DNA of 64,000 nucleotides from Alkaliflexus imshenetskii DSM 15055 (GTDB lineage Bacteria > Bacteroidota > Bacteroidia > Bacteroidales > Marinilabiliaceae), in contig NZ_KI912105.1 in the NCBI RefSeq assembly GCF_000517065.1, forward strand, positions 2,118,820 through 2,182,819. The letters are read 5' to 3'. The notes beneath the pieces are model-generated. The model searched no databases. It had not been told where the DNA came from and saw nothing but the letters and a program-made list of their open reading frames with translations. Shown here piece by piece: positions 445-19,282 of this stretch. Every line of letters begins with the position of its first letter. Position 1 is the first letter of the stretch. The position numbers were made by a program, and so were the translations under genes.

Positions 445-483
445 TCTTTAAAAAATCAATGGAACGCTTGTTCCTACCGGGAA

Positions 484-864
484 TTAGTCGGTGTAAACAA
501 TATAGTCAAATGGGATCTCCACAATGTCCGAATACTCCTCACCTGCCTCGAGCATGTCTTCTTCGTCCTCGTGGTAATGCCACTTAATCACAACTTCTTT
601 TCCGCTTTCTACAATTTCTTCAAATTTGAGAAGAATATCCAGAATTACTTTTGAAGAAGCAGTGTTGAAGTACTCCAGTTTAAAATTAAATTCAGTCCGG
701 TCATTTGGTTCTTTGGCGTACGCATCAATCCAGTCTAGAATTTGCTCATAAAACTGGTTAACGTCCTCAGGAAGAGAACGACCCGAAATTTCGAATTGAC
801 CGCTCGCCTTATCCAGAATCACGTTTGGGGTATCATCTGTTCCTTTGATGTTAATAATTTCCAT
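484..864 (-). CDS. siaC: SiaC-family regulatory phosphoprotein (DUF1987)
   Basis: The 126-residue product fits the DUF1987/SiaC family over its whole length. SiaC is the phosphoprotein of the SiaABC switch: in Pseudomonas a Thr is phosphorylated by SiaB and dephosphorylated by SiaA, and the unphosphorylated form activates the diguanylate cyclase SiaD. The conserved core is visible as LEYFNTASSK around residues 63-72; the Thr/Ser of NTASS is the likely phosphosite, as in the STAS-like fold of the family. It follows the SiaB homologue by 17 bp and the PP2C phosphatase upstream of that, which supports the assignment. No GGDEF gene is adjacent, so its target here is unknown. Confidence 0.88.
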   Translation of the reverse strand: MEIINIKGTDDTPNVILDKASGQFEISGRSLPEDVNQFYEQILDWIDAYAKEPNDRTEFNFKLEYFNTASSKVILDILLKFEEIVESGKEVVIKWHYHEDEEDMLEAGEEYSDIVEIPFDYIVYTD

Positions 865-881
865 AACTATCAGCGCTTTAA

Positions 882-1457
882 TCAGTTTCTTTTAATTGTT
901 GAGGTGAGGATAAAAAACGAAACTTTATCATTCAGTTCCTTAAATTGGTATCCCAGCTTGCTCCCGGTTTTCTTTGCAATATCGATAAATCCGAGTCCTG
1001 CACCACCTTTTTCAGAAATTGTGGTTTCTTTAATTTGTTGTTTGAACAGAGCAGAAAGTCCTTCTTTATCAAGGCTGTTGATGTGTTCCAGGTTTTTCTT
1101 AAGATCCGGTACTTTCTCGTTTTTAATGATGTTGCCGGTAATGATGTTGTAGGAGTCATCACCTTTGCTCACCATTACAATGCCGCGACGCTCCTCGTCT
1201 TCTTCACTAAGGGCATCGGCATGTTTGCTGATGTTTTGTAAACATTCGACCATTACATTGAAAACCTTTTTCTGCACAGTGTTTGATTCTGCACTTTTTG
1301 AAAGGCTTTTTTCAGTTAGGGAAGTAAAGGTTTTGGTTATTTCCTGTGTTACTTCACCCTCGTAAACCAAACTAATTTCGTTGGTTTTCATAGTCTTATA
1401 GAGTTGGTAAGCAAACTCCAGAAAACCTTGCTTCTCTTTTTCCATTTCGTTAATCAT
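882..1457 (-). CDS. siaB: SiaB-family protein kinase (DUF6272)
   Basis: A 191-residue protein matching the SiaB kinase family, which phosphorylates SiaC through a GHKL-like ATPase fold. An N-box-like segment is seen as VECLQNISKHAD near residues 70-81, and a G-box-like segment as GGAGLGFIDIAKK near residues 151-163. It lacks a histidine-kinase H-box, as expected for a Ser/Thr kinase of the anti-sigma-factor type. It sits between the PP2C phosphatase (29 bp upstream) and siaC (17 bp downstream), the order phosphatase-kinase-substrate. An ATG five codons further in is an alternative start. Confidence 0.87.
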   Translation of the reverse strand: MINEMEKEKQGFLEFAYQLYKTMKTNEISLVYEGEVTQEITKTFTSLTEKSLSKSAESNTVQKKVFNVMVECLQNISKHADALSEEDEERRGIVMVSKGDDSYNIITGNIIKNEKVPDLKKNLEHINSLDKEGLSALFKQQIKETTISEKGGAGLGFIDIAKKTGSKLGYQFKELNDKVSFFILTSTIKRN

Positions 1458-1486
1458 TCAATAATCAAAAAAGTATGTAAATATAA

Positions 1487-4111
1487 CTACAATTCAATTC
1501 CTATCAATAGCACATCGTCAACTTGTTTTTCATCGCCCATCCATTCATAAAAATCTTTTGAAAAATGACGGGCAAAATGTGCCATACTGGTGCCTGCATT
1601 TTCGGTGAGGCTTTCACGAATGCGACGCGCCTGATACTTTTTGCGGTCAGTGCCTCCAATCTGATCCGGCAAACCATCAGAGAACACAAAAATTTGATCG
1701 CCTCTCTGATAGTTAATAACGTGATTTTCAAAATCTTTTTCAACTTTATTTCGAATTGGAATGCCACCAATTGCTTTTCGGGTTCCCTGGTATTCGTTAA
1801 GTTCGCCGTTACGAACCAAATAAAGTGGGCGGTGCGCACCTGAATAGTTTAGTATCTGTTTCTCCTGGTCGATGATGCAGAGAGCTAAGTCCATTCCATC
1901 GCGTCCAAGGGCTCCTTCCTGGTCTTGCTTTAGTGTGCTTCGAACCTGTTGATGTAATTCATCCAGAATTTGAGCCGCACTGTGGTCTGTTTGGGCGTTT
2001 ACTATGTTGTTGAGCAGGAAGTATCCAATAAAGCTGATAAGTGCGCCCGGCACTCCATGACCGGTACAGTCTACGGCCGCCACGTATGAAATGTTATCTT
2101 TTTGGAAAAACCAGGGAAAATCACCGCTCACCACGTCTTTCGGACGATAGAAAATAAACGACCGTGGGAAATACCTCTGAATTATACGTGTATCAGGCAA
2201 AATCGACGTCTGAATACGTTGCGCATAATTGATACTGTCCGAAATTTTCTTGTTTTTCTCTTTGATGTCCGCTTCAATTTTCTTGAATTCGGTCATATCG
2301 TGCGCCACAAAGAGAATGGTTTCCAGCTCTCCCTCCTCTCCCAGTTCCGGGATGGCTTTAATCTGCATTATGCGCTCCCCGTCCATTGAGTTAATAGCCA
2401 CTTCTGAGATGGACTGGGTCATGTACTCTCTGATATAGGCCAGGCTCTCCTGAACAAAGTCGATAAATCGGGTATCAATATCAAGTTCGTTGATACGTTT
2501 TTTCACCAGTTCGTGCGCCGGAAGGTTCATGAATACAGAAACGGCAGGGTTAACATATACAAGTTTACCCATTATATTTAAACGGATGATCATATCGGGT
2601 GAGTTTTCCGATAAGCTTTGCATCCGGCTCTTCATCCGTTCTTCTTTCTCTGCACGTTTTCTTTCAGTTATATCCTGGGTGTTGAAAATAATTCCCTTAA
2701 TGGCAGGATCGTGCAGCAGGTTTTTTCCTTTGGTCTCGAGAAATAGTTTCTCGCCGTTTTTTCTGAGATAGGTATATTGCGCTGTTTGCTCGCCTCCAGG
2801 AGTATCAAGCAGATATTGAAAGAGGTTGTTAATGGTTTTTAAACCGCGTGGGGTGAGGATATCGGGATCCATACCCGTAATTTTGTCATCATCATTATAG
2901 CCCAGAATGCGTTTAACCGATGGACTTTCGAAAAGCAGTTCCTGCTCCTCACTGTAGATGGAGATAAATTCTGACGCGTTGGTAAGCAGCGCTTCGAGTC
3001 TTTTGCGTGAGTTGGCCACCTCTTGAATTTGTGACTCAAGCATTTTATTAGAACGCTCCAACTCCTCTTGTGCCGCAATCATTTCATGAGCGTTTTTACG
3101 GAGCTGGTCCTCGTTTTCGCGCAGCGCAGCAGTCATCTGTTGCGATTCAACAAGAAGCTGTTCGGTGCGGGTGGTAATTTTCAGGTTGTATATGGTTTGC
3201 CCAATGGTAGAACTAATTTCTGATGCAAACTGCAACATAAATCCAGGCACTTTGTCATCCAGAAAAGCCATCTCCATAACGCCTTGCAGATTCTCTTCCT
3301 GCTGAAGCGGTAATATAAGGATACTTCTGGGTTTTTGCTCACCCAATAAGCCGGAGGTAACCGTGTAATAATCCTCTGGTATTTCGGTACGGTAAATCAT
3401 GGCTTTTTCGTACGCAGCGGCTCCAATGAGACCTTTTCCAATCTCCACCTCATTGAACTCAAAACGTCGTCTGCCGTAAGCGTACATGGCTGTACGTTTT
3501 AGCACCTGGTTGTTTAGTATATAAAATGCGCCTTGTATGGCACCTGTATAATTAATGATGGCTTTAATGGTGCTGAATGAGAGATCTTCAAGATTGTGTG
3601 CATTGCGCAGCAAATCTGAAATTTCCTCTTTTCCTTTGGTAATCCAGTTATGCTCTTCTTCTTTCTTCTTGCTTTTTCGAATATTCTCTCCAATGTCAAT
3701 AAGGGTTTCTGAAAGAACATCTCCATTGGATTTTAACATCTCCCATTTGTTGCTCTTCAGTGCGCGGGCCAAATCGTAATTGCTACGGATACGGTTATTT
3801 AGCTCTTCTAGCTGATGTTGTGTGTCCGAAGTTTTAATTTTCACTTTGTTGAGTGAATAGAGAAGCAGTAAAGGAAAGGCTATAATTAGCACATTGACAA
3901 TCCATACCGGTACAAATTTGTGTAGGTAGAGGATGTTTAATAAAGTCACCGGCAAATCGAGGAAAGCCAGAAATCCTGACCATGAGAAAAAGAGCAGGAA
4001 TAATACGGAGAGCAGCAGGTAGTATCTCTCACGCATGTTGAGCACATACGGAGAAAATTGCTTTTTCCACTTTTTACTTATGTATTTTATGTTTAATGAT
4101 TCTAACATCAT
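1487..4111 (-). CDS. Membrane GAF-PAS-PAS PP2C/SpoIIE phosphatase (SiaA-like)
   Basis: An 874-residue multidomain protein. Two hydrophobic segments near residues 30-50 and 70-92 anchor it. A GAF domain follows (about 175-310, with the motif IPEDYYTVTSGLLG), then a coiled coil (about 315-370), two PAS domains (about 370-490 and 500-620) and a C-terminal SpoIIE-type PP2C phosphatase (about 650-874). The metal-binding signatures are intact: VSGDF, VDCTGHGVPGA, FSDGLPDQ and a final VDDVLLIGI. With siaB and siaC downstream it should dephosphorylate SiaC in response to a GAF/PAS signal, as SiaA does, but the sensor half is different from Pseudomonas SiaA. The first in-frame codon is TTG at 4114; ATG at 4111 is chosen, and the next codon is also ATG. 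Confidence 0.85.
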   Translation of the reverse strand: MMLESLNIKYISKKWKKQFSPYVLNMRERYYLLLSVLFLLFFSWSGFLAFLDLPVTLLNILYLHKFVPVWIVNVLIIAFPLLLLYSLNKVKIKTSDTQHQLEELNNRIRSNYDLARALKSNKWEMLKSNGDVLSETLIDIGENIRKSKKKEEEHNWITKGKEEISDLLRNAHNLEDLSFSTIKAIINYTGAIQGAFYILNNQVLKRTAMYAYGRRRFEFNEVEIGKGLIGAAAYEKAMIYRTEIPEDYYTVTSGLLGEQKPRSILILPLQQEENLQGVMEMAFLDDKVPGFMLQFASEISSTIGQTIYNLKITTRTEQLLVESQQMTAALRENEDQLRKNAHEMIAAQEELERSNKMLESQIQEVANSRKRLEALLTNASEFISIYSEEQELLFESPSVKRILGYNDDDKITGMDPDILTPRGLKTINNLFQYLLDTPGGEQTAQYTYLRKNGEKLFLETKGKNLLHDPAIKGIIFNTQDITERKRAEKEERMKSRMQSLSENSPDMIIRLNIMGKLVYVNPAVSVFMNLPAHELVKKRINELDIDTRFIDFVQESLAYIREYMTQSISEVAINSMDGERIMQIKAIPELGEEGELETILFVAHDMTEFKKIEADIKEKNKKISDSINYAQRIQTSILPDTRIIQRYFPRSFIFYRPKDVVSGDFPWFFQKDNISYVAAVDCTGHGVPGALISFIGYFLLNNIVNAQTDHSAAQILDELHQQVRSTLKQDQEGALGRDGMDLALCIIDQEKQILNYSGAHRPLYLVRNGELNEYQGTRKAIGGIPIRNKVEKDFENHVINYQRGDQIFVFSDGLPDQIGGTDRKKYQARRIRESLTENAGTSMAHFARHFSKDFYEWMGDEKQVDDVLLIGIEL

Positions 4112-4117
4112 CAATAC

Positions 4118-4891
4118 TTATAGAATTCCTTTATCAATTAACTTTTCAGAAATGACATGCCACATTTTTTCAATTTCGGTGTTATGAAAGGTTATCATTT
4201 CCAGCAAATATTTACATTCGCCATTTTTAATTACCGGCAAAAGATATAAATAACCTTTTGAGGATGCTCCTAATCCGGACGATATTTGAAAATAGTCCTC
4301 CGGCAAATCCGCAACCAGCATTGGAACACCATCCGATACAGCCTGGCCGTTAAGACCTTCTCCGGCTGTAAATGAAGCAGGAGTAAAATCTTCGGGCAAT
4401 GCATAGCTCTGTTCTACGTTAAAATGGCCTTTGGGTTCTGTTTCTTTGTAAAGAACCAATGCCCCTGCTTGAAATACTTCTGAGATTAAATGCAGAAGAT
4501 GGTGCTTGTCTCCTTTTTTTATATCGTTACGGAATAGTTTGAGCATTACCTTTTCCTGATAAGATGCAAATTTTTGTGATGCGTACTCTTTCTCTTCGTA
4601 TGCCGATAGCTTCTCCTGTAACTCTCGTTTTTGGTTCTCCCAGTCGGTCGTAGCATTTTTAAAATCTGCCTCTAAGGCAGAAAGTGCATTGTTGGTTTTG
4701 CGGTATTGATTATCGATAAGATAGATAGCCAATACGAACAGCATGAAGGTGACCGATTCAAGCATATAGAAATAGCCTGAAACAGAAGGTGGTGCTACCA
4801 AATATTTCACTACGGCCACCATCAATGCGATAAGCGCCGGAACATAGAGCTTCAAGAGCGCAGAATGCTTTTTTAGTATGTCAGTGTTCAT
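4118..4891 (-). CDS. Membrane-anchored GAF domain protein without output domain
   Basis: A 257-residue protein: two membrane segments (about 14-31 and 42-60), a coiled coil (about 65-115) and a GAF domain to the C-terminus with GEGLNGQA and LPEDYFQISSGLG. The same GAF signature occurs in the phosphatase downstream and in the GAF-PAS protein at 7167-9044, so the three are paralogous sensors. No kinase, phosphatase, cyclase or methyl-accepting domain follows, so it must pass its signal through contacts. Its ATG overlaps the stop of the receiverless CheB gene by four bases, indicating translational coupling. The role is inferred only. Confidence 0.7.
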   Translation of the reverse strand: MNTDILKKHSALLKLYVPALIALMVAVVKYLVAPPSVSGYFYMLESVTFMLFVLAIYLIDNQYRKTNNALSALEADFKNATTDWENQKRELQEKLSAYEEKEYASQKFASYQEKVMLKLFRNDIKKGDKHHLLHLISEVFQAGALVLYKETEPKGHFNVEQSYALPEDFTPASFTAGEGLNGQAVSDGVPMLVADLPEDYFQISSGLGASSKGYLYLLPVIKNGECKYLLEMITFHNTEIEKMWHVISEKLIDKGIL

Positions 4892-5466
4892 TGTGGCAGA
4901 GCATTTAAAAATTCCAGAATTTGTTGGGGATCAAGAACCAAATCAGGTTGAAACAGTTGTAGCGCCGAACGTGGCATCGTATCAATGTCACACGATTTTG
5001 GGTCCTGAACAATGGTAAAGCCTTTGTTATCGGCAATCTCTTTTATTCCCCTGGCTCCATCTTTGTTTGCGCCGGTTAAAAGAATGCCCAACACCCGGTC
5101 GCGAAAAGCATACGCTGCCGACGACAAGGTATAGTCGATTGATGGGCGGCTGTGATTAAAACTCTCCTCGGTTGATAGTGCAATGGATCCGTCAAGTTCA
5201 AGAAACAGGTGGTAGTTGGATGGCGCCAGATAGACCGTGTTGGGTCGCAGCTTCGCCTTATCGTTGGGTTCAACCACCGGTATAACTGACTTTAGGCTTA
5301 AACCTTCGACCAAACCAGATCGTACATGCTTCAATCGGTGAAGACATAAAACAATAGGTATTTTGAATTCGGGGTTTATGCCAGCCAGAATATGCGATAC
5401 AACAGAAAAACTTCCTGCTGAACCACCCATTACAATCACTTTATATGTCTGATCCTGATTATACAT
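4888..5466 (-). CDS. Receiverless CheB-type methylesterase
   Basis: A 192-residue protein consisting only of the CheB catalytic domain; no response-regulator domain precedes it. The catalytic serine is in GGSAGS, the histidine in CLHRL and the aspartate in LLTGANKDGA, so hydrolysis of glutamyl methyl esters or glutamine deamidation is plausible. A full-length CheB is encoded at 9102-10181, so this is a second enzyme, perhaps dedicated to a non-receptor substrate or to the neighbouring GAF/PAS proteins. It overlaps the upstream CheR-like gene by 8 bp and the downstream GAF gene by 4 bp, forming a tight CheR-CheB-GAF block. Confidence 0.82.
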   Translation of the reverse strand: MYNQDQTYKVIVMGGSAGSFSVVSHILAGINPEFKIPIVLCLHRLKHVRSGLVEGLSLKSVIPVVEPNDKAKLRPNTVYLAPSNYHLFLELDGSIALSTEESFNHSRPSIDYTLSSAAYAFRDRVLGILLTGANKDGARGIKEIADNKGFTIVQDPKSCDIDTMPRSALQLFQPDLVLDPQQILEFLNALPQ

Positions 5467-6292
5467 GATTGAAATTGCGTATTCTGGATGGTTTTTGGAA
5501 TATTTTCTCGTTTTTATCGATGGTGATAAGCTCTTCTTGCAGAAAAGATGGCAGCTCCTCTTTTACGCCTATGGCTATGAATCCGCCAGGCATTAGTTTT
5601 TCAACCAACAAGCGGAAAGTATTATCAGTGAGCTTTCGATTGTAATATATGGATATATTTCGAAACAGTATTAAGCCAATATTCTCTTTACTGTTTTCCT
5701 GTGAATGAAAAGCCTCGTGCCTGCATTGAACAAGATTGCGGATTTGCTGCGAAACCGTTAGTGAATTGTTGCCAACCTCAAAGTAGGATTCGTAGTTTTC
5801 CTTATCTTCCAATCGTTTATAGTTGGTTTGATTAATGTCGTTGTGTCCCGGGTTTATTCTTCCTGCAGCAATGTTTTCACAGTTTTTTAACGATGTGTTG
5901 TTGCAGAGAATTTTGTACTTGTCTGACAATCCGGCCTCGTGAAGAATTATAGCGAGCGAAAATGCCTCTTCCCCACTTGCTTCATGCGGTAGCCAAAGTG
6001 TTTGGCAATCTTCAGGCAATTTAGGCATAACCTGATCACGGAGATGTCGCCAGAAAGCAGGATCCCGAAACATTTCCGTAGTTTCTACATTCATCAATGT
6101 TTTCACATCATCTCTGAAGGCACTTTTCGAAAGGTATTCGATGAACTGCTCTTTGCGGCGTATATGCAGTTGTTTACAAATCATGGATAGCCTTCTTTTG
6201 AGAAAGGCAAATGCATAATCAGAATAATCCATGTCAGGAAAATCTGCCATGGATGCTGTTAATTCTTTTATGTCGTTTATTCCAAGATTCAC
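5459..6292 (-). CDS. Divergent CheR-like methyltransferase
   Basis: A 277-residue protein with the two-domain CheR layout: N-terminal helical region, then a Rossmann-like domain. The SAM-binding motif is altered. The usual WSAGCSxGEEPYS is LWLPHEASGEEAFS, and the usual ATDIS after the second strand is CNNTSL. The RNVLIYF motif is RNISIYYN. The helical VETTEMFRDPAFW segment that normally contacts the substrate is intact. It may bind SAM poorly or act as a non-catalytic partner of the CheB it overlaps. The first codon is GTG; a Met at residue 15 is a possible later start, but it would trim the helical domain. Confidence 0.72.
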   Translation of the reverse strand: MNLGINDIKELTASMADFPDMDYSDYAFAFLKRRLSMICKQLHIRRKEQFIEYLSKSAFRDDVKTLMNVETTEMFRDPAFWRHLRDQVMPKLPEDCQTLWLPHEASGEEAFSLAIILHEAGLSDKYKILCNNTSLKNCENIAAGRINPGHNDINQTNYKRLEDKENYESYFEVGNNSLTVSQQIRNLVQCRHEAFHSQENSKENIGLILFRNISIYYNRKLTDNTFRLLVEKLMPGGFIAIGVKEELPSFLQEELITIDKNEKIFQKPSRIRNFNHV

Positions 6293-6303
6293 AATAAAAC
6301 TAT

Positions 6304-7152
6304 CTAGTATTTAAAATGAAATGTGTTTGTACGTTCGTAAACTGGGCCGTTTTTCGCAAATTTTGTTTTAAAAAAGCCGTTGATTGACTCATGTGTGCCC
6401 AGCACCATTGCCCCACCCGGGAACAGGGTGTCGTGAAATTTCTGAATTATTCTTGATTGCAGACCCGAATTGAAATAAATCAAAACGTTACGGCAAAATA
6501 TTAAATCGAACTTATTGTAAAACGGCAAAGGCTGTTTTACCAAATCATGTTTTATAAACTTCGCTTTACCAAGTAAGGATGGCTTAACGGACATTCTGTC
6601 TTTTGACTCGTCGATATCAAAATATCCCAGGAACTTTTCCTTCGGAAGGTTTGGAAAGGCATCCTGAAAATTGTTCAGATATTTCTGAAAATTGAAATTG
6701 TACTTATATGAACCGCTATTGGCTACTTCAAGAGATTTTTTACTTATGTCTGTGGCATAAATTTCGCATTTATCGGCTAATCCCATTATATCCAACAATA
6801 TGAGGTTGGAATATACTTCCTGACCCGATGAGCATCCGGCATGCCAGATGTTTATTTTTGGTCTGCTCTTTAGTGCCCAATAGACTTTTTCATAAAGATG
6901 TTTCCATACCGGAGGATCACGAAAAAGCTCTGTGGTGTTAACAGTAATTGCTTCTACCACAAGCTCAACAAACTCCTCGTCGGTGCGTGTTTTATAGATT
7001 AGTTCATCCAGATTCAGGCGATAATCCTGCATTATTTTCTGGATGCGTCTATCGATTGAATTATCTGAATATTCACAAAAATCATAGGGTGAACATTCCT
7101 TAAGTACTTGCAGATAATCCTTATATGTCTGTCTCTCTTCCCTATTCTGCAT
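6304..7152 (-). CDS. CheR-type protein methyltransferase
   Basis: A 282-residue CheR-family enzyme that adds methyl groups from SAM to glutamates of chemoreceptors. The SAM motif is IWHAGCSSGQEVYS, the second-strand acidic motif is YATDIS, and FCRNVLIYFN is canonical. The N-terminal domain carries VNTTELFRDPPVW. It is the second of three CheR-type genes in this strand run. It lies 11 bp upstream of the degenerate CheR and 14 bp downstream of the GAF-PAS protein. Its conserved motifs suggest it is active; whether its substrate is the chemoreceptor at 16722-18422 or something else is open. Confidence 0.83.
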   Translation of the reverse strand: MQNREERQTYKDYLQVLKECSPYDFCEYSDNSIDRRIQKIMQDYRLNLDELIYKTRTDEEFVELVVEAITVNTTELFRDPPVWKHLYEKVYWALKSRPKINIWHAGCSSGQEVYSNLILLDIMGLADKCEIYATDISKKSLEVANSGSYKYNFNFQKYLNNFQDAFPNLPKEKFLGYFDIDESKDRMSVKPSLLGKAKFIKHDLVKQPLPFYNKFDLIFCRNVLIYFNSGLQSRIIQKFHDTLFPGGAMVLGTHESINGFFKTKFAKNGPVYERTNTFHFKY

Positions 7153-7166
7153 GCTTAAGGCTATTG

Positions 7167-9044
7167 TTAAAATAATTCTACTTCCACATTTTGAATAAAT
7201 GCGGTATACGAAAAACTGTTGTCAACCTGGGCTTCGGAAAGCAGGAACAGTACCGGAACATCTTCACCGTATTTGTTTCTAATAGGAATTTCGCGTCTTT
7301 CGCCAATGATTTTGTTTCCTTCTTTGGTTACAAAGGCGGCTACAAACTCGTTGGTTTTGGTTGTTTCTTTAGAAAATAGCATCGACACACTTTGTCCCAG
7401 CACTTCTGAACGATCATAACCCCAAAGTTTCTCAGCTGCCGCATTGAAAAACTCGAGTGTGCCGTCATCATTGGTTGTGATGATGGCATCCAGCGCACCT
7501 TCAAGGGTTTTTTCATTGCGAATTTTTACTGCCTCAATCTCCTTGAATTGTTCTTTCATTTCGTTGCGCGCATCCTCCAGCATCATACCCAGCTCCTCTT
7601 TGCTTCGCTTAAGGGCTTCCTCCATTTCAACCTGTTCAGTGATGTCATTTTCGAGACTCAGAATCTTGAGAATGTCGCCATTGTGATCCATAACAGGACT
7701 ATAGGTTGATAGCAGATATATCTCATCGCCTGATTTGGTGCGTCGTCTTACGCGTCCACGAAAGTTCTGACCATTTTGCAAATCAGCAAGAATTCTGTCG
7801 AGTTCTCCAACATCCTCTTTAAAGAAAAATATCTTCAGGTTTTGTCCTTCAACCTCTTCGGGTTTGTATTTGAATCTTTTCAGGAAGTTATCGTTAACGG
7901 ACAACAGCTTTCCACTGATATCAAATTCACATGAGATGGCGGCATGGTCAATGGCTTCGAGAATTCCTTTTCGCTCTATTTCTCTACGGTCGCTCTCTTC
8001 TTGTGTTGCACGCATCTCTTCAAGGTTTTGGCGCAGCTCTTCCTCTTGTTGAGCCATTTTTTCAGCCTGAATCTGCGTCTCTTTTAACAGTTTGTTGGTC
8101 TGTATGTTATTTTTTACTGTGGCAATTGTTGCGGCAATACTTTCTGCAGACTTTTCAACCAACTCCACTTCAAATTTCTGAAGCACCTGAAAGGACGCCA
8201 GCTCAATTACACCATAGAGTTCATCGTTGGTTTTAAGCGGTACAATAAGTATTGTTCCCGGATTGGCCTCTCCCAGTCCTGAGGTAATGTGAATGTAATC
8301 GCTTGGGATGTCGGTAAGCAGTATGGTCTCTTTTTCGAGTCCGCATCGACCAATGAGCCCTTCGCCCCAGTTTATTGTTTTGTCTGTATATTTTCGCCTG
8401 TCGAAAGCAACGCAGGCAGTCATTTCAAAGTATTTGTCGCCGTTTTTGCTTTGGTTAAGCAGAAATACTCCACCCTGATTTATTTTCATGTAGTTTACCA
8501 GGTAGCGGATAATGTTGTATGAGAACTCTTCCAGGTTGTCATTCGATTTGCGAAGTATTTCGCCAAATTGGGCAAGACCTTGTGTCACCCAGGTGCGTTG
8601 CTCCTCCTCTACCCTTCTGCGTTCCTGTTCTGTTTTACTTTGCACCATAAATTCGCGCAGGTTAAGCAGTGCCTTAGTCATTGGGTCTTTCTTGTCCTCA
8701 TTGGTGAGTGGTTCGTCAAGTTTGTCCTGTCTGAGGTTTTCGATAAATGACAAAACCATTTTGGTACGTCCGGCTTCTTTGAGGAGCTTATTCGTTTGTC
8801 TTTTAATAATGGCACCAAATTGTCGGGCTATATACCAAGTCATTAAAGCAAAAGCGAGCGGAAGTACCACAACACCCCACATACCCGGAAAGATACGGAA
8901 TAGTTCGGCCAAGGTTCTGTTGGATTGGGCAAATGCCGGTGCATCAAAACTAAGCAGAACAATTATAATGGCAAGGATGAAACCCAATGCCACACTTTGC
9001 AGTGTAGATTTGGAAATCAGTTTTTTATACTTAATTTTTTTCAT
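7167..9044 (-). CDS. Membrane GAF-PAS-PAS sensor without output domain
   Basis: A 625-residue protein. Two hydrophobic segments lie near residues 12-40 and 52-72. A coiled coil leads into a GAF domain (about 170-315) with GEGLIGR and IPSDYIHITSGLG, then a second coiled coil, a PAS domain (about 370-480), a short coiled coil, and a second PAS domain that ends the protein. There is no histidine kinase, GGDEF, phosphatase or methyl-accepting domain. The N-terminal half parallels the SiaA-like phosphatase, as if that protein had been duplicated and lost its catalytic end. The upstream TTG at 9053 is an alternative start; ATG at 9044 is preferred. Confidence 0.72.
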   Translation of the reverse strand: MKKIKYKKLISKSTLQSVALGFILAIIIVLLSFDAPAFAQSNRTLAELFRIFPGMWGVVVLPLAFALMTWYIARQFGAIIKRQTNKLLKEAGRTKMVLSFIENLRQDKLDEPLTNEDKKDPMTKALLNLREFMVQSKTEQERRRVEEEQRTWVTQGLAQFGEILRKSNDNLEEFSYNIIRYLVNYMKINQGGVFLLNQSKNGDKYFEMTACVAFDRRKYTDKTINWGEGLIGRCGLEKETILLTDIPSDYIHITSGLGEANPGTILIVPLKTNDELYGVIELASFQVLQKFEVELVEKSAESIAATIATVKNNIQTNKLLKETQIQAEKMAQQEEELRQNLEEMRATQEESDRREIERKGILEAIDHAAISCEFDISGKLLSVNDNFLKRFKYKPEEVEGQNLKIFFFKEDVGELDRILADLQNGQNFRGRVRRRTKSGDEIYLLSTYSPVMDHNGDILKILSLENDITEQVEMEEALKRSKEELGMMLEDARNEMKEQFKEIEAVKIRNEKTLEGALDAIITTNDDGTLEFFNAAAEKLWGYDRSEVLGQSVSMLFSKETTKTNEFVAAFVTKEGNKIIGERREIPIRNKYGEDVPVLFLLSEAQVDNSFSYTAFIQNVEVELF

Positions 9045-9101
9045 TATTTGCAAACTTGATAAATGATTCCGACAATTATACGTGACAGGTATAAATGGGT
9101 T

Positions 9102-10181: not shown

Positions 10182-10251
10182 AGATTGCTCTGATAAATGT
10201 TGAAATTAACATCAGGCCTGGTGCGATTGTTTTCGCTTTCGGCCTGATGTG

Positions 10252-10722: not shown

Positions 10723-10731
10723 TCTAATTCC

Positions 10732-11631: not shown

Positions 11632-11668
11632 AGTACAGTTGTTATTATATCCTCTGGTTTGATTGTAT

Positions 11669-12535: not shown

Positions 12536-12550
12536 TGATTTGCTCGTTGG

Positions 12551-13030
12551 TTATTTGATGTTGGTTATAATATCCATCATGGAAATGATCTCCTTCTGAT
12601 TGAACACCATATCGGCGTTTAAAATATATATGAATTGATTGTCAGATGTATATGTTCCTAAAATGTATCCTGGCCGGTAGTCATCATCGATGGTTTTAAC
12701 GCTGCTTTGGTCGGCTTCAAACACGTCCGAAACGGCATCCACCAAAATTGCTACCCGGTAGGTTTTTCCGAGCACGTCGTTGGTAAGCTGCAACACGATG
12801 ATGCAGGTGGATGGTTCAACCTGTATGGGTGTCATGCCAAATTTTATCGATGTGTCAATCAGCGGAATCACTTCATCACGGTATTCAATAACTCCTGTGA
12901 CAAAAGGAAGTGACTGCGGGAGTGGTTTTGGGGTGATATACTCTTTAATCTCCATTACTCTCGCCACATTTACGCCAAACACGTCTTCTCCGAGTTTAAA
13001 GGTGAGATATGAATTTATTTCAACGGACAT
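12551..13030 (-). CDS. cheW: CheW coupling protein
   Basis: A 159-residue CheW-domain protein, the adaptor that links receptor tips to CheA. Family features include YLTFKLGEDVFGVNVARVMEI at the N-terminus (cited in part), the PFVTGVIEYRDEVIPLID strand-turn region and a conserved AILVDAVSDV stretch. It is the downstream member of a cheW pair 18 bp apart; the two are clearly different in sequence, suggesting separate roles such as receptor class or array-spacer function. It lies 15 bp upstream of cheR. Confidence 0.92.
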   Translation of the reverse strand: MSVEINSYLTFKLGEDVFGVNVARVMEIKEYITPKPLPQSLPFVTGVIEYRDEVIPLIDTSIKFGMTPIQVEPSTCIIVLQLTNDVLGKTYRVAILVDAVSDVFEADQSSVKTIDDDYRPGYILGTYTSDNQFIYILNADMVFNQKEIISMMDIITNIK

Positions 13031-13048
13031 ATCAGTTTTTTTTCCCTG

Positions 13049-13498
13049 TTATTTTTCAATTACTTCCATTATGTTTTTGATATCAATGACGTGTATAAAC
13101 TCTTCATTGATACAAAGCGTCCCTTCAAAGGTGTCGATCAATCCTTTCTTACCATCGGTAACAGTTTCTGTTAGTTCAGATTGATTGGTCTCGATAACTT
13201 CCTTTACCATATCTACCAGAAGACCCAACCGGGACTCCTGCTCAGCGTTTGGGTTTATTACAATGATGGAGGTATCAGCTCCGTTAATGGTTTTTTCATT
13301 TCCCATTAGGATACGCATATCCACCACGGGAACAATATTACCGTGCAGATTTATGATACCCAGCATGAATACCGGTGTGTTGGGGACTGCTGTAATGGTT
13401 GATGGAACCTCGAGTATATGGTTTACCTGAAGTGCATCAACAGCAAAAATGTCCTCACCTATTTTAAACGACAATAATGTCAAATCCTGAGATGTCAT
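13049..13498 (-). CDS. cheW: CheW coupling protein (second copy)
   Basis: A 149-residue CheW-domain protein. It shows LLSFKIGEDIFAVDALQV at the N-terminus, the MLGIINLHGNIVPVVDMR segment typical of the family and LGLLVDMVKEVIE. It lies 40 bp downstream of cheA and 18 bp upstream of the second cheW. Paired cheW genes are common in non-flagellar chemosensory systems; the sequence alone does not show which copy binds CheA P5. Confidence 0.92.
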   Translation of the reverse strand: MTSQDLTLLSFKIGEDIFAVDALQVNHILEVPSTITAVPNTPVFMLGIINLHGNIVPVVDMRILMGNEKTINGADTSIIVINPNAEQESRLGLLVDMVKEVIETNQSELTETVTDGKKGLIDTFEGTLCINEEFIHVIDIKNIMEVIEK

Positions 13499-13538
13499 AA
13501 CTTGTATGGCTTGGTTTTTACAGATAAAACAGACTGTA

Positions 13539-15575
13539 TCAGCCGGTTACTTTAATATTTTTTCTGGACTGTAACAGTCTTGATGTATCAATTACCATCG
13601 ATATTGTGCCATCGCCCATGATTGAGGCTCCGGAAATTATCTCCTGTTTTTTAAGGTATCTGCCCAAGGGTTTTACCACAGTCTGGTACTCTCCAACTAC
13701 GTTATCTACAATTACGCCGCTTTTTTTGTCTTCAGATTTAACCATGACCATCTGTACAATATCAGTCTGGTGTTGTGGTTCATTGAATACTTTTCTGAGA
13801 TCAATAAAAGGCACTTGCTCTTTGTCGATAATCACAACGTTGTTAAACGATTGTTTGATTTGAGCCGGATCAAGGGCGTATATTTTGTCGATGGATGAAA
13901 TGGGTATTACATATTGATTGTCAGCAACTTTTACAAGCAAACCATCAATAATAGAGAGCGTAAGTGGCAGACGTATCGATATCAGGGTGCCTTTTCCAAC
14001 TTGAGATTCAATGGTAACTTCTCCCCTGATGTTTGCGATTTTTCGTCGTACTACATCCATACCAACGCCACGTCCCGATACATCAGATACCGTATCACGC
14101 GTACTAAAACCGCTCACGAAAAGCAGCTCAAGTATCTCTTTTTCGTTGAGAACCGCATCGGCCTCAATAATGCCCTTTGAAATGGCTTTTTGACGGATAT
14201 ACTCCGTATCCATGCCTTTACCATCATCCGAAATCTCAACAATTACGTTGGCTCCTGAATGAAATGCTTTGAAAAGGATGGTGCCTTTAGGAGATTTTCC
14301 TTTTGCAATACGCTCTTCGGGCAATTCAATACCGTGGTCTATTGAGTTACGTAGTATATGTAGCAGCGGATCGGTAAGGTTTTCAATGATGTTTTTGTCT
14401 AACTCAAGATCGCCACCTTCAATTACAAAATCAATATCCTTGTTCTGCTCTTTGGACAAGTCTCTGACCAGCCTCTGAAAACGCATCAACTCACTTTGCA
14501 ATGGTATCAACGAAATGTCAAAGGCATTTTCCCGTAACTGCCGAGATAGCTTTTGAATGTTCTCAGTAAGTGCACCAATTACAGGATCGTCATGATTTTC
14601 GGCATAAAGACTAAGCTGGGCCTGAATGGTTACCAATTCGCTCACCAAGGTAACCAGTTCGTCAATTTTGTGCGATGTTACGCGAATACTCGATATTTTG
14701 TGTTCTTTAACGACAACTTTCTTTTTTTCTTCAGGTTCTTTTGTCTGAACCTTATTCCAGTCGCCACTTTTAAAGTCATCAGGAGTTAAAAGCAGGTTGT
14801 GTTGTAATGCTTTTTCAATAAGTACGTTGATTTCCGGTTTGCCGATGATATTAGTTTCAGCAATTTGGTCAACGTGAAGTTCACATTCATCCTCAACAAA
14901 AATGAAAACATCCTTTATTTCGTTGACCGACTCGGCAGTGTTGACGAGAATTTGCCAGATGCAGTAGTTGGACGTGTTGTCAATTAAATCGAGAGATGGA
15001 ACCTTGTGCGTGTATGCAATTGAAACGGCTTGCCCCAGAGCGTGAATGTCATCCATCAGGTATAGCGGGTTGGTGCCGTTTTGAAGGAGTTCAGGCTGTG
15101 GTATAAAACTAATCAGGTAAGTTTTTGTGGCGATGGCCGCTTCAGCTCCGCTGGCTTCAACCGATGTCATGCCTGCTTTTTGAGCCGGCGAATCTGTAAG
15201 GGTCAGAAAAGCTTGTACACGCTGAATAAACGCTTTTTGGTCTGCAATTTCCTCATCGTTAGTTAAATCTCCGGTTTTCAGCAGGTGGTTGATGTGGTCG
15301 ATAGCCGAAAAAGTAAGAGAGATAAGATCGGTAGATACGGCTAACTTATTACCTCTCACCCAATCAAAAATGGTTTCCAGGTGATGGGTAAACTCGCTCA
15401 GATGATTAAATCCAAACATTGCTCCGCCCCCTTTCAGGGAGTGCATCGCCCTGAATATCCTTTCAATGAGTTCTTTATTGTTCATGTCTTTTTCCAGAAG
15501 AAAGAGTGCTTCTTCCAGATCATGAACATTGTCCATTGATTCCTCTACAAACTTAGCTTTGAATTTATCTATCAT
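13539..15575 (-). CDS. cheA: CheA chemotaxis histidine kinase
   Basis: A CheA of about 678 residues. The N-terminal Hpt domain has the phosphoacceptor in MHSLKGGGAMFGF (about residue 45). A linker region of about 170 residues follows, then the P3 dimerisation helix (KIDELVTLVSELV), the GHKL ATPase with HILRNSIDHG, SDDGKGMD and GRGVGMDVVRRKI, and a CheW-like P5 domain to the end. It phosphorylates CheY and CheB in response to receptors. Two starts are possible: ATG at 15596 adds seven residues, while the ATG at 15575 gives MIDKFKAKF, the usual CheA beginning, and is preferred. Confidence 0.94.
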   Translation of the reverse strand: MIDKFKAKFVEESMDNVHDLEEALFLLEKDMNNKELIERIFRAMHSLKGGGAMFGFNHLSEFTHHLETIFDWVRGNKLAVSTDLISLTFSAIDHINHLLKTGDLTNDEEIADQKAFIQRVQAFLTLTDSPAQKAGMTSVEASGAEAAIATKTYLISFIPQPELLQNGTNPLYLMDDIHALGQAVSIAYTHKVPSLDLIDNTSNYCIWQILVNTAESVNEIKDVFIFVEDECELHVDQIAETNIIGKPEINVLIEKALQHNLLLTPDDFKSGDWNKVQTKEPEEKKKVVVKEHKISSIRVTSHKIDELVTLVSELVTIQAQLSLYAENHDDPVIGALTENIQKLSRQLRENAFDISLIPLQSELMRFQRLVRDLSKEQNKDIDFVIEGGDLELDKNIIENLTDPLLHILRNSIDHGIELPEERIAKGKSPKGTILFKAFHSGANVIVEISDDGKGMDTEYIRQKAISKGIIEADAVLNEKEILELLFVSGFSTRDTVSDVSGRGVGMDVVRRKIANIRGEVTIESQVGKGTLISIRLPLTLSIIDGLLVKVADNQYVIPISSIDKIYALDPAQIKQSFNNVVIIDKEQVPFIDLRKVFNEPQHQTDIVQMVMVKSEDKKSGVIVDNVVGEYQTVVKPLGRYLKKQEIISGASIMGDGTISMVIDTSRLLQSRKNIKVTG

Positions 15576-15621
15576 GAGAAAAATGCATTTGGGCATTTAA
15601 ACGTATTGAGAATTACCTCAA

Positions 15622-15951
15622 TTACTGTCTTTGAATACTGTTCTCTTCTACAAATGTTTGAATGAGCACTTCGATGGCTCTTTTGGTTTGCCAAATAAGT
15701 TGAGGCGTTAGATTTCGCTGCCCTGCCCTTATGTCATAAAAGGTTCTTTCCAGTTTTCGAGACAGTTTGGATGCCCCGTCGAAACCAAGCATCGGCCCCG
15801 TACCACTTATTTGATGTGTCAGGGTAAAGATTTGTTCTGTCAAAACCGGGTGGTCTTCAACCGGCACCTCCTCATGAGAGAGCTTTATGTTGATGTCTTC
15901 CAACTCTTTGACAGTTGTTTCGTAAAACTGTTTCTTAATTTCTGCTAACAT
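15622..15951 (-). CDS. Stand-alone Hpt-like protein
   Basis: A 109-residue helical protein between cheY and cheA. The segment FTLTHQISGTGPMLGF matches the Hpt phosphotransfer signature (His-x-x-Lys-Gly in classical members), keeping the His and Gly, but the Lys is replaced by Ser. The following KLSRKLERTFYDIRAG also fits the Hpt helix pair. It could shuttle phosphate between CheA, CheY and CheB or serve as a phosphate sink, which would matter because no CheC, CheX or CheZ is seen. Activity of the substituted motif is uncertain. Confidence 0.75.
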   Translation of the reverse strand: MLAEIKKQFYETTVKELEDINIKLSHEEVPVEDHPVLTEQIFTLTHQISGTGPMLGFDGASKLSRKLERTFYDIRAGQRNLTPQLIWQTKRAIEVLIQTFVEENSIQRQ

Positions 15952-15960
15952 TGCTTTACG

Positions 15961-16326
15961 CTATCGAATAACTCTGGAAATGGCAGAAAGCAATTTAGCT
16001 GGAACAAACGGTTTAATAATCCATCCTGTAGCTCCGGCTTCCTTGGCTTCCATTTTTTTAGCGGCCTGTGACTCAGTTGTCAGAAAGAGGATTGGAATGT
16101 GTTTGTAATTTTCCATCTCACGCACTTTTCTGATAAGCCCCAGCCCGTCGAGGTTTGGCATGTGAAGGTCGGTGATGATAATATCAATATGACGGCCGTC
16201 GAGGAATTTTAACGCGTCTTCACCATCAACACCAACGAGCACATCGTAACCTTCATTCTGAAGCGTAAAATTTACCACTTCACGGATACTTTCGGAATCG
16301 TCTACAATTAGAACGGTTTTAGCCAT
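15961..16326 (-). CDS. cheY: CheY-type single-domain response regulator
   Basis: A 121-residue receiver with no output domain. The acidic pair is in LIVDDSES, the phosphoacceptor is Asp53 in ITDLHMPNLDG, the switch Thr lies in FLTTES and the conserved Lys in IIKPF. It is encoded 13 bp from the STAS gene and 9 bp from the Hpt-like gene, directly ahead of cheA, so it is the natural phosphate acceptor of that kinase. In a bacterium without visible flagellar genes its target is unknown, possibly the gliding machinery or a surface system. Confidence 0.93.
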   Translation of the reverse strand: MAKTVLIVDDSESIREVVNFTLQNEGYDVLVGVDGEDALKFLDGRHIDIIITDLHMPNLDGLGLIRKVREMENYKHIPILFLTTESQAAKKMEAKEAGATGWIIKPFVPAKLLSAISRVIR

Positions 16327-16339
16327 AATATTTTGATTT

Positions 16340-16657
16340 TTAGTTGTTTTGTTTGAGTAGATTGCCGAACCCGGCGTTTACGATCAAGGATTCCAAGTCC
16401 TCGGGCAAAGTCATGGAGAGATTCACCGCAAAACCCTTTTTCTTTCCGCTGTGTTTGATTGAGTGCAGCAGCTGAATAAAGGTTAAATCGATGTTGTCAA
16501 CATCCTTAACTGTAATATTAACTACCGACTGATCGGTAATTTGACTCTTCACGCTTTCGGTTACTTTTTTGATGGTGTTGATAGTCAACTGTCCAGTGAA
16601 AGTAATGTCGAGTTCGTGGTTGTTTTTCTTATAGTCGATGTTGAAATTCTCTGCCAT
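16340..16657 (-). CDS. STAS domain protein
   Basis: A 105-residue protein of STAS fold, the fold of anti-sigma-factor antagonists. It reads ITFTGQLTINTIKKVTES near the start, with the central phosphosite loop DVDNIDLTFIQLLHSIK, where the usual Asp-Ser is Asp-Leu-Thr. The Thr could be a phosphosite. It lies between the chemoreceptor and cheY. Since a SiaB kinase and PP2C phosphatase are encoded 12-15 kb further along the same run, this STAS protein may be a second client of that switch. That link is inference. Confidence 0.8.
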   Translation of the reverse strand: MAENFNIDYKKNNHELDITFTGQLTINTIKKVTESVKSQITDQSVVNITVKDVDNIDLTFIQLLHSIKHSGKKKGFAVNLSMTLPEDLESLIVNAGFGNLLKQNN

Positions 16658-16721
16658 GGTTTCTATTTTGATCGTGTCTGATACGCAGGATTAACCTAAA
16701 AAGTTATATTCTTATGAAACT

Positions 16722-18422
16722 TCAAAACTTTTCATAGTTGTCCAAATCAAATTCCTTCTCGAGGTTAGAAAGATTCTGCTTGATTCCACCGGGTTTTGAC
16801 GAATCCAGCGTTTCTCTGCTGCCAGCTTTTTTGTCAGCAGATGGTTTTTCTGTTTTCGATTGAGGTACCGATTGTCCTGCCTTTTCCTCCCCTATATTGA
16901 AATAGCTGACCGCCTCCTGAAGGTTTTGTGCCAAACCGGATAGCTGCTCTGAACTTTGGGTAAGCTCATCTGAGCTGGATGCATTTTCCTGGGTAATCAT
17001 GTTCAATTGCTGCATGGCCAGATTAATTTGGTCGGCACCAGTTTTTTGTTCCATGCTGGCTGCGGTAATCTCTTTAATGAGCAAGGTGGTTTTCTCGATG
17101 TCGGGTACCAGCATTCTGGCTTTCTCGCCGGCTTCTTTCGATACCTTGAGTCCTTTGTTAACGAGGGTTACAATTTCATCGGCTGCCGATTTACTTCTTT
17201 CCGCCAGTTTACGCACCTCTGCTGCAACAACCGAGAAGCCACGACCGTGTTCTCCGGCTCGTGCCGCCTCAACCGCCGCATTTAGCGCCAGAATATTTGT
17301 CTGGAAAGCAATGTCGCTGATGATGGAGATTTTTTCTGAGATGGCGCTCATGGCTTTGGCCGCTTCAGAACTCAGCTCGTTGGCGATGTTTACGTCCTTG
17401 GCTGTTTCTACTGTAATTTTTTCAGTCTGAATGGCATTGTCTGTGTTCTGGTCGATGTTTGCAACCATCTCTTCGATTGAGGTAGATACCTCCTCGGCAG
17501 ATGCTGCCTGATCAGCAGAACCTCTCGACAATTGCATTGAACTTTTCTTCAGAACATCACTTGAGTAGACCAGATTAGCGGCATTTTCCTTAATGGAAAC
17601 GACAGTCCTTTTAAGGTTGTCGGCCATGTTTATCATCTCTTTGGCAAGTACACCAATTTCGTCATCCTGATTTACATCCACACTTGCAGTGAGGTTACCA
17701 CTTCCAATTGCTTTTGCAAATTCAACGCCTTTGTTAAGTGGCAACACAATGGCACTGTAAAGCAGCCATGCAATACCTAACGAAGCCACAATCAGTAACA
17801 ATCCCATGATGATAACCACCCAGGTTAGTGTGGCAAATGCTGAACGCATATTTGCCAGAGCCTCTTCGTTCAGTGCTGCGTATTTATCGGAGATAGTTGA
17901 AATCTCATCGGCAATTTGATCCGAGAGGCGCATGATACCGCGACCCTCCATCACCATGTCCTCAGCCTGGAAAAATACCATTACATCTTCATAGGCTTCA
18001 AATGAATCAAGACTCTCCATCACTTCGCGTTGCAGACCGTAGAGCGAATCTGTACGATGGATTATTTTTTCCAATAGTTCAATGTCTTCACTGTCTCTCC
18101 AGCGATTTGCAATTGGCCTGAGTCTTTGCTGAAGTTGGGGCCAATCGGTGTTTTGAAGCTCAACTAATCTTATTTTGTCAGGTGTTCCCGGCTGTTTGTC
18201 AACGAATACCCAGTTTCGAATGAGCATTTTACTCTGGGTAATTTCGGTATCTAACTCACTTAAAGCCTGAACTGTTGGGCCATATATTCCGGTAACCTGA
18301 TTGTTAAGGTTTGTGCTTCTTACCAAAGTAAAGATTGTAAGAACACTGTTAAGCAAAACAACAACCAAGATAAGGCCGAACCCATACAACAATTTCTGGC
18401 CTATATTCAACTTCATCTTCAT
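16722..18422 (-). CDS. Methyl-accepting chemotaxis protein (transmembrane chemoreceptor)
   Basis: A 566-residue receptor. One membrane helix at about 10-30 and another at about 200-222 enclose a periplasmic four-helix-bundle-type sensor of about 170 residues. HAMP follows (about 222-275), then the signalling domain with the hairpin tip [20 protein letters not shown] and [18 protein letters not shown]. The C-terminal 55 residues are a Pro/Ser/Lys linker ending DLDNYEKF, with no NWETF-type CheR tether. It is the only chemoreceptor gene seen and is the first gene of the che run, which suggests it feeds this CheA. Confidence 0.94.
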
Positions 18423-18766
18423 TTTTTAATCATTTGTTGGTTTATATCTCTCGTTTTCTGGTTCTGATATTACGTCTGAATTCAAAATATCAAGCAAGCA
18501 TTCTCACTACATGATACCACAAAAATGGTTTTCAGAATAAAAACTGACCGCCGCAACTCGCCAAGCTATATGGTTTAATTCGTAAATTGCGATAAATCAG
18601 TTTATTCTGAACACACTATTTTGCCGTCGGCAATTTAGCAAAATTATCAAAGAGATACAGAAACCTTTATTGAAAAAATGGCATAATTCATTTAATCTTA
18701 AAAGTACTCTTCTCTTTTTGACTGATGCAATCAATAAAAATACAGTTGATGGCCTTTGCACAGGTT
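18423..18766. other. Intergenic region between chemoreceptor and yfiR-like gene
   Basis: No credible gene in 344 bp. A small palindrome, TTGCC-GTC-GGCAA, lies at 18621-18633. On the minus strand a TAATTTTG element (complement of 18639-18646) matches the Bacteroidota -7 consensus, but no -33 TTTG is at the right distance, so the promoter of the che run is only tentatively placed here. Confidence 0.4.
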
Positions 18767-19282
18767 TTACAAGTTGATTGCTGCAGCCATTCCTTCAAGC
18801 CTTGAGCTAAACTGCAACCCCATTCGTGCAGCATTTGCTTTGTGTAGCTCAAACCGCAATGTGCCGTCGCGAACTACAAAATTAATTGCCGAACCATGAT
18901 TTGTTGCACCTTCAGAATCAGTTATTATCAGGCTGTTTTTTTGACGGGCCTTATTAATAAGCGCTTCTGAATTGCTCCGTAAGTTAATTGATGAGGATAC
19001 ATAAATCACCTGACAGCCTTCTACTTCGTCGATGCTTCTGTATTCTCTAACAACGACATCTTGAAACCCAAACTTTTTTCCTTCGGATTGACTTCGAATC
19101 CAGTCTGCAATTTCGCGGTCACGTACAACTCCAATTACAAAATCTCCCTGTAGGGACGATTCAGGCCACCCAATGTATCGTATGAAATTTAGGGTGAACA
19201 CGGCTTTAAACTTTGCCTCCTGCGCTACCATTGAAAACATGGGAAGCATGAGAAGCAATAACAATAAGTAATGCTTTTTCAT
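18767..19282 (-). CDS. YfiR/HmsC-like periplasmic protein (DUF4154)
   Basis: A 171-residue secreted protein. The N-terminus MKKHYLLLLLLMLPMFSMVAQ is a signal peptide. The mature part has the DUF4154 signatures: VFTLNFIRYIGWP, FVIGVVRD, the central CQVIYVSSS and the C-terminal INFVVRDGTLRFEL and AARMGLQFSSRL. YfiR represses the diguanylate cyclase YfiN in the periplasm of Pseudomonas; no YfiN-like or GGDEF gene is nearby here. A 344-bp gap separates it from the chemoreceptor, whose periplasmic sensor is a possible partner. Confidence 0.85.
   Translation of the reverse strand: MKKHYLLLLLLMLPMFSMVAQEAKFKAVFTLNFIRYIGWPESSLQGDFVIGVVRDREIADWIRSQSEGKKFGFQDVVVREYRSIDEVEGCQVIYVSSSINLRSNSEALINKARQKNSLIITDSEGATNHGSAINFVVRDGTLRFELHKANAARMGLQFSSRLEGMAAAINL

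Follow-up and report, generated by a model that had tools for sequence, protein, structure and literature searches.

We analyzed a 64,000-nucleotide stretch of the Alkaliflexus imshenetskii DSM 15055 genome (4.12 Mb), positions 2,118,820–2,182,819 of its contig (hereafter the window), in which 19 consecutive minus-strand genes lead from a chemoreceptor to the switch protein SiaC (484–18422; open reading frame (ORF) calls and Pfam). Two older Bacteroidales units have been joined in this run: the first is a chemosensory core, the second a CheR/CheB-GAF-PP2C-SiaB-SiaC-exporter unit. We hold with moderate confidence that the joined units form one chemosensory exporter-control system, in which SiaC gates the exporter. 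Labels such as L165 and G243 are our handles for loci and genomes; "family" and "order" refer to Marinilabiliaceae and Bacteroidales.

From the receptor, Unit A comprises genes for the methyl-accepting chemotaxis protein (MCP), STAS, CheY, Hpt, CheA, CheW, CheW, CheR, a histidine kinase, CheD, CheB, and GAF-PAS. Unit B continues with CheR2, CheR3, CheB2, GAF, GAF-PAS-PP2C, SiaB, and SiaC, and then the exporter with its lipoprotein-like and secreted-like partners. Spacing inside the 19-gene run was -8 to 70 bp. A first-pass annotation of the window had described the same receptor-to-SiaC run, with a widest gap of 72 bp instead of 70 bp; its span of 484–19282 overran the 19 genes, the end coordinate taking in a 20th, YfiR-like gene. 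Its gene list (CheA/W/W/Y/R/B/D, Hpt, STAS, PP2C, SiaB, and SiaC) stood, lacking the soluble histidine kinase, and the exporter past SiaC had gone unseen.

The exporter next to SiaC

The genes of the run and the start of the exporter are as follows.

444–1, minus strand: first 148 codons (TerB region) of the TerB-ABC_tran-ABC2_membrane exporter, running off the left edge (whole gene L165:12166-15264, 1032 aa)
484–864, minus strand: SiaC (DUF1987), 126 aa, phosphosite motif YFNTASSK (Pfam PF09345, 144.9 bits; aligns with the DUF1987 protein 6kko_C, E 8e-19)
882–1457, minus strand: SiaB-family protein kinase (DUF6272), 191 aa (Pfam; NCBIfam SiaB_fam_kinase 176.6 bits, cut-off 85; PDB 6kko_A, E 2e-15)
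1487–4114, minus strand: SiaA-like phosphatase, GAF-PAS-PAS-PP2C/SpoIIE, 875 aa (Pfam SpoIIE 68.4 bits; two PAS stretches in NCBIfam; hydrophobic N-terminal segments judged by eye)
4118–4891, minus strand: GAF protein with hydrophobic N-terminus, by eye (Pfam GAF_2 E 4e-4, below cut-off; position conserved in the family)
4888–5466, minus strand: CheB2, methylesterase domain without receiver (Pfam CheB_methylest 157.1 bits)
5459–6292, minus strand: CheR3, CheR-like with a broken, degenerate S-adenosylmethionine (SAM) motif (Pfam CheR 72.9 bits)
6304–7152, minus strand: CheR2, CheR methyltransferase with the SAM motif kept (Pfam CheR 133.5 bits)
7167–9053, minus strand: sensor of GAF-PAS-PAS architecture that lacks an output domain and sits where the two units meet (Pfam)
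9102–10181, minus strand: CheB, receiver (REC) plus methylesterase (Pfam)
10252–10722, minus strand: CheD (Pfam)
10732–11631, minus strand: soluble histidine kinase without recognized sensor domain (Pfam HATPase_c 94.4 bits; HisKA 18.7 bits, below cut-off)
11669–12535, minus strand: CheR (CheR_N and CheR; Pfam)
12551–13030, minus strand: CheW (Pfam)
13049–13498, minus strand: CheW (Pfam)
13539–15596, minus strand: CheA (Hpt, dimerization, HATPase_c, and CheW domains; Pfam)
15622–15951, minus strand: stand-alone Hpt, CheA-P1-like (Pfam Hpt 29.9 bits; matches CheA in homology search)
15961–16326, minus strand: CheY (Pfam)
16340–16657, minus strand: STAS protein (Pfam STAS 30.5 bits)
16722–18422, minus strand: chemoreceptor (HAMP and MCPsignal; Pfam)

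In locus L165, which holds the whole exporter gene, SiaC was followed after 39 bp on the same strand by the exporter. Behind it, with gaps of 45 and 46 bp and on the same strand, came o305 (305 aa), whose start resembles that of a lipoprotein, and o146 (151 aa), whose start resembles a signal peptide, both starts judged by eye. The exporter carries a nucleotide-binding domain (NBD; ABC_tran 111.2 bits) and then an ABC-2 transmembrane domain (TMD; ABC2_membrane 72.4 bits) in one chain, and its PDB sequence matches included CDR1, ABCG1, ABCG2, and ABCG5. It shares the fused NBD-TMD order of ABCG-type exporters, although its best NCBIfam match, TIGR00955, reached 243.5 bits, far below the cut-off of 736; it differs from them in its N-terminal TerB region, in having SiaC next door, and in its lipoprotein-like and secreted-like partner genes. 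For a predicted model of o305 (mean pLDDT 74.7), the PDB gave nothing at E ≤ 0.001; for that of o146 (mean pLDDT 86.2) it gave 10 matches, including GOLD domains and a PPC domain, which indicates a beta sandwich.

The exporter lay directly downstream of SiaC in 78 of 80 SiaB loci, the best of 276 found by a search with the SiaB alignment. Among the two remaining loci, L119 ends about 0.3 kb past SiaC and L096 is a true exception. A lipoprotein-like and a secreted-like gene usually come after the exporter. SiaC lay directly upstream in 28 of the 30 best exporter loci, L176 and L192 being the exceptions. The second SiaB-SiaC pair of this genome also has an ABC-2 exporter as its neighbor, similar in size and in convergent orientation (L166:9826-13962). 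SiaC/DUF1987 occurred in 63 of 149 sampled genomes of the order: 58 had both SiaC and the exporter, five SiaC only, five the exporter only, and 81 neither (kinship ignored). Some genomes of the order, e.g. G042, G047, and G070, held up to 21 SiaC matches. Outside the order, the arrangement PP2C-SiaB-SiaC-exporter-o305-o146 was seen in three genomes of a single family, f128 (L217-L219). In the phylum, the exporter was matched at E ≤ 1e-80 in seven of 296 sampled genomes, among them A. imshenetskii; in two of the seven the N-terminal part was missing.

In the SiaABCD system of Pseudomonas aeruginosa, a PP2C phosphatase, SiaB, and SiaC with the conserved Thr motif are encoded in the same order, followed by the presumed effector. 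PMC8457831 describes Pseudomonas SiaC as binding the SiaD stalk through Y65, N67, T68, and S69, with T68 phosphorylation by SiaB blocking the binding, and DUF1987 proteins as proposed modulators of adjacent proteins; SiaABC is called a partner switch in PMC7647112. Here, the effector slot holds an exporter, the unit includes CheR/CheB and GAF genes, and it is joined to a che core. No GGDEF match was found in 60 family genomes, this one included, while eight of 14 control genomes were positive, consistent with the first-pass annotation, which had reported no diguanylate cyclase in the run. Because the exporter adjoins SiaC in 78 of the 80 loci, even where SiaB-SiaC has left the che genes, and because GGDEF is absent from the 60 genomes, the exporter and not the che genes occupies the SiaD position. 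The annotation's proposal that chemotaxis genes take the place of SiaD was therefore rejected, and its functional picture needs the exporter added.

The residues of the switch were compared in an alignment of 34 family and 32 other loci (66 in total). The Y-F-N-T motif of SiaC was present in 34/34 family and 31/32 other sequences (65/66). The Asp and GHG motifs of PP2C, the E/N/H and GAGLG residues of SiaB, and the Ser/His/Asp residues of CheB2 were invariant in all 66. In the SAM motif AGxxxGxE of CheR2, both Gly and the Glu were kept in 66/66 and the first Ala in 28/34 family and 32/32 other sequences; the AG was not kept in CheR3. The NCBIfam equivalog cut-offs were not reached by SiaC (90.8 vs. 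150), SiaB (85.7 vs. 225), or SiaA (174.8 vs. 700). Because Y, N, and T are kept, GGDEF is absent, and the exporter is adjacent, the exporter is likely the target on which SiaC acts.

Two units and their joining

Twenty genomes from outside the family were read at one locus each, picked from the exporter-search loci and overlapping with the 30 best exporter loci. SiaB-SiaC-exporter-o305 was found in all 20, with CheB2 in 17 (one divergent) and CheR2 in 16; CheA was found in none within the stretches of 9–19 kb read. For the stand-alone unit loci L142-L164, up to about 4 kb upstream of CheR2 was covered, and a che core farther away would be missed. CheR2, CheR3, and CheB2 thus belong to the Sia unit. 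STAS belongs to the che core: che loci outside the family yielded 33 STAS sequences for alignment. Several genomes outside the family carried both units at separate places (e.g. G064, with L008 and L200). Across 295 genomes of the order, the co-occurrence of CheA and the exporter was strong: 60 had both, 11 CheA only, 26 the exporter only, and 198 neither (CheA matches to about E 1e-123, paralogous CheAs included; exporter matches to 1064 bits; kinship ignored).

In the family, the joined form was widely conserved. SiaC was present in 59 of the 60 genomes and orthologous CheA in 58; G336, without any CheA match, and G301, with nothing beyond a distant hit, were left out. SiaC was located 12.6–14.0 kb downstream of orthologous CheA on the same strand in at least 38 of the 58 genomes, covering 17 genera; the 58 include G304 and G324, with partial or broken CheA matches. 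Among the 20 unlinked genomes, nine had SiaC on the same contig as CheA, but more than 20 kb off or on the opposite strand; for the other 11, none of the listed SiaC matches fell on that contig. Che runs were also read gene by gene in 20 other family genomes (L005-L007 and 17 further loci), with neighbors labeled, here and at the SiaB, exporter, and outside-family loci, by their best phmmer matches to the proteins of the window. The same order up to SiaC was found in 15, the receptor of L053 being cut by a contig end, the PP2C of L057 being in pieces, and the stand-alone Hpt not being called in some. In G332, G343, and G317, SiaB-SiaC was elsewhere and PP2C was still with the che genes; in G350 and G339, SiaB-SiaC was divergent and the stretch read ended inside the che part. 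In 8/8 genomes of genus g192, which includes Carboxylicivirga mesophila, SiaC and CheA were 40–121 kb apart or on separate contigs, and tight che-Sia linkage is therefore not indispensable. Away from the che genes, this genus still keeps SiaB-SiaC (G332, G343) together with the exporter (e.g. L092, L105). In Geofilum rubicundum (L057:2217-5418; also L110), PP2C was split into three ORFs and SiaB was seemingly shortened, through draft errors or decay.

Chance or artefact as the origin of the arrangement was rejected because the order was kept in 17 genera, while the left neighbor, a cation efflux gene, was kept in only five of the 32 SiaB-centered loci reaching 3 kb past o305.

Only one other genome of the 295, G243 (L039), had CheA and the Sia unit in one same-strand run. 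In the exporter tree, a branch with SH-aLRT 100 set the family apart from all other rows, and G243 was placed among other families. A single origin of both runs, with the family and G243 as one clade, was rejected by the approximately unbiased (AU) test (p 0.006), which used 36 rows chosen from 54, with the long-branch L166 and L220 left out and the group defined by gene arrangement after the exporter tree had been seen. In the CheA tree, which was not used for this conclusion, L039 sat on a long branch that lacked strong support. Joining of the che core with the Sia unit therefore apparently happened at least twice, independently, or genes moved between lineages. SiaB or SiaC near CheA in L036, L041, and L043 was not counted as linkage, these loci having another orientation and their genomes 15, 19, and 11 SiaC matches. 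At one of them (L036:4556-5752, G090), a receiver-PP2C gene stood with SiaB and SiaC about 9 kb from CheA, divergently, which may offer a direct His-Asp route to SiaC in another family.

The sensor gene at the junction resembled the che core: its GAF-PAS protein scored 433–580 bits against full-length che-core GAF-PAS genes vs. about 240–362 bits against those of Sia units. Thr was found in 21/21 family STAS sequences aligned, at the position that corresponds to Ser58 of SpoIIAA. Elsewhere, 33 STAS sequences from che loci (G243 included) had S in 12, T in nine, A in nine, G in two, and P in one at this position, a contrast weakened by the relatedness of the family sequences. Three of the STAS che loci outside the family (L036, L039, and L041) had SiaB or SiaC in the stretch read, some stretches being short.

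Unit A resembles the class of non-flagellar chemosensory arrays in having MCP, CheA, CheW, CheY, CheR, CheB, and CheD. GldL was found in 21/21 family genomes searched and FliG_C in 0/21, with four of 14 control genomes positive for FliG_C. It differs from such arrays in the STAS protein, the stand-alone Hpt, and the soluble histidine kinase in the run, and in the Ser/Thr switch and exporter that follow. In the HptB-HsbR-HsbA system of Pseudomonas, PP2C is fused to a receiver domain. That system likewise combines parts of a His/Asp relay with a STAS protein near PP2C. Here, by contrast, PP2C lacks a receiver, and SiaB and SiaC form the kinase/substrate pair. This genome has two further CheA clusters (L025 and L026) with 45% identity to the CheA here and no SiaB/SiaC called within the 20 kb read.

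Proposed mechanism and alternatives

In the mechanism that we propose, SiaB would phosphorylate SiaC at the Thr of YFNTASSK, and the membrane GAF-PAS PP2C would remove the phosphate. Unphosphorylated SiaC would bind the cytoplasmic TerB end of the exporter and switch it, as SiaC does SiaD in Pseudomonas. GAF/PAS and chemosensory inputs would together set SiaC phosphorylation. CheR2 and CheB2 probably act on GAF/PAS sensors and would set their gain by methylation. A coiled-coil signature present in 57 of 106 GAF-PAS ORFs and 11 of 84 PP2C ORFs is at most a speculative methylation site. In Marinilabiliaceae, the receptor array would feed the same adaptation and phospho-relay pool, reaching the switch through shared CheR/CheB adaptation, STAS, or the histidine kinase and the junction GAF-PAS. 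Joint working of the che and Sia parts is plausible because the join seemingly arose twice and the units co-occur even where unlinked. The dual-input system of the first-pass annotation is inferred, and signaling from the che genes to SiaC is less certain than the action of SiaC on the exporter.

The conserved SiaC-exporter pair names a specific candidate target for SiaC in an order where DUF1987 is common, and it suggests that cells may use the switch to steer export and not to make a messenger molecule. With CheR/CheB travelling together with PP2C/SiaB/SiaC at loci where no CheA was read nearby, the reach of methylation-based adaptation would widen to Ser/Thr switches. Cultured organisms that have receptor, switch, and exporter in one run are available among the Marinilabiliaceae with the joined form. 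The most specific version would put export under chemotactic control with no second messenger: a receptor array that adapts through CheR/CheB would govern the exporter by way of a SiaABC-type Thr partner switch, methylation-based adaptation and His-Asp signaling would both feed into SiaC, and SiaC in Bacteroidales would act on the exporter's TerB region. As a whole, this version is tentative and rather doubtful. The idea of cross-talk is not new, since PMC9239204 speculates that a PP2C-kinase in Campylobacterota may affect a chemoreceptor through a STAS protein. None of the papers listed by full-text searches described the che-Sia-exporter arrangement, as judged by titles and the starts of abstracts, most subscription papers lying outside the scope of the searches.

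Several observations weigh against exporter control by the joined units. On the signaling side, Pfam identified no REC/Response_reg domain in the PP2C protein (1487–4114); CheA therefore has no visible direct route to PP2C, and the array would have to act via CheR/CheB adaptation, STAS, or the histidine kinase with GAF-PAS. Ser69 of Pseudomonas SiaC is Ala here. On the exporter side, the TerB call barely passes (25.0 vs. a cut-off of 24.4 bits), and a weak hairpin (474–461) lies between SiaC and the exporter start. L096 keeps GAF-PP2C-SiaB-SiaC with no exporter downstream, L176 has SiaB with no SiaC called beside its exporter, and five of the 149 genomes have a related exporter and no SiaC. 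Within this genome, Pfam gave no TerB match for the ABC-2 exporter beside the second SiaB-SiaC pair (L166), and the 1.5 kb flanks of a third related copy (C5:2295904, L226) hold no SiaC. As to the join, g192, G317, and two g187 genomes have lost SiaB-SiaC from their che run. Among the 60 genomes with both units, five had them joined and 51 had them on different contigs (many assemblies being fragmented); in G054 they were 20 kb apart on opposite strands, and in three they were far apart on one contig.

One alternative is that two independent machines share one operon, the array steering motility via CheY and the Sia unit gating the exporter on its own GAF/PAS signals, so that the join means co-expression only. 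We regard this as a real possibility, though one that falls short of even. The separation of the units in most genomes holding both, the split of SiaB-SiaC in g192, and the lack of REC in PP2C would all fit it, and because GldL was found in 21/21 and FliG_C in 0/21 family genomes, a gliding-type output for CheY may be available. However, the apparent second join, the conserved full order, the che-core-like GAF-PAS at the junction, and the co-occurrence of the units (kinship ignored) count against it.

It is unlikely that the Sia unit acts on an unlinked target, such as a sigma or anti-sigma factor, with neither the exporter nor the che genes as effectors. Classical partner switches act on sigma factors, and SiaC and the exporter each occur without the other in five of 149 genomes, but the two generally co-occur and adjoin. 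Least probable, and improbable indeed, is that chemotaxis proteins (CheA, CheY, or CheR-like) are the targets of SiaC or of the STAS protein of the che core, with the exporter incidental: the che genes are upstream neighbors in the family and the STAS Thr is uniform there (21/21, vs. S or T in 21/33 elsewhere, a contrast open to kinship), but the constant set in the order is SiaB-SiaC-exporter, no CheA lies in the stretches read at the 20 outside loci, and STAS occurs in che cores with no SiaB near.

Sites and genes around the run

Within 1–19800, promoter-like sites numbered 53 vs. 42.6 (standard deviation 6.2) in shuffled sequences, and terminator-like sites 19 vs. 17.7 (standard deviation 4.0). 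A Bacteroidetes promoter pattern had two matches in the window vs. 4.0 expected. Two genes border the receptor end of the run.

18767–19282, minus strand: YfiR/HmsC-like protein (DUF4154; Pfam 107.3 bits), the 20th same-strand gene, 344 bp upstream of the receptor
19783–22197: MMPL-family gene, divergent, next to the run

The divergent MMPL gene was found to the right of the run in 13 of 18 family loci reaching far enough. A YfiR homologue preceded the receptor in 19 of the 20 family loci examined for it; in the exception, L071, about 1.3 kb precedes the contig end and no YfiR is there. The gene is thus kept despite the absence of GGDEF from the 60 family genomes, which leaves no YfiN-type partner at hand, and the receptor may be the partner of the YfiR-like protein.

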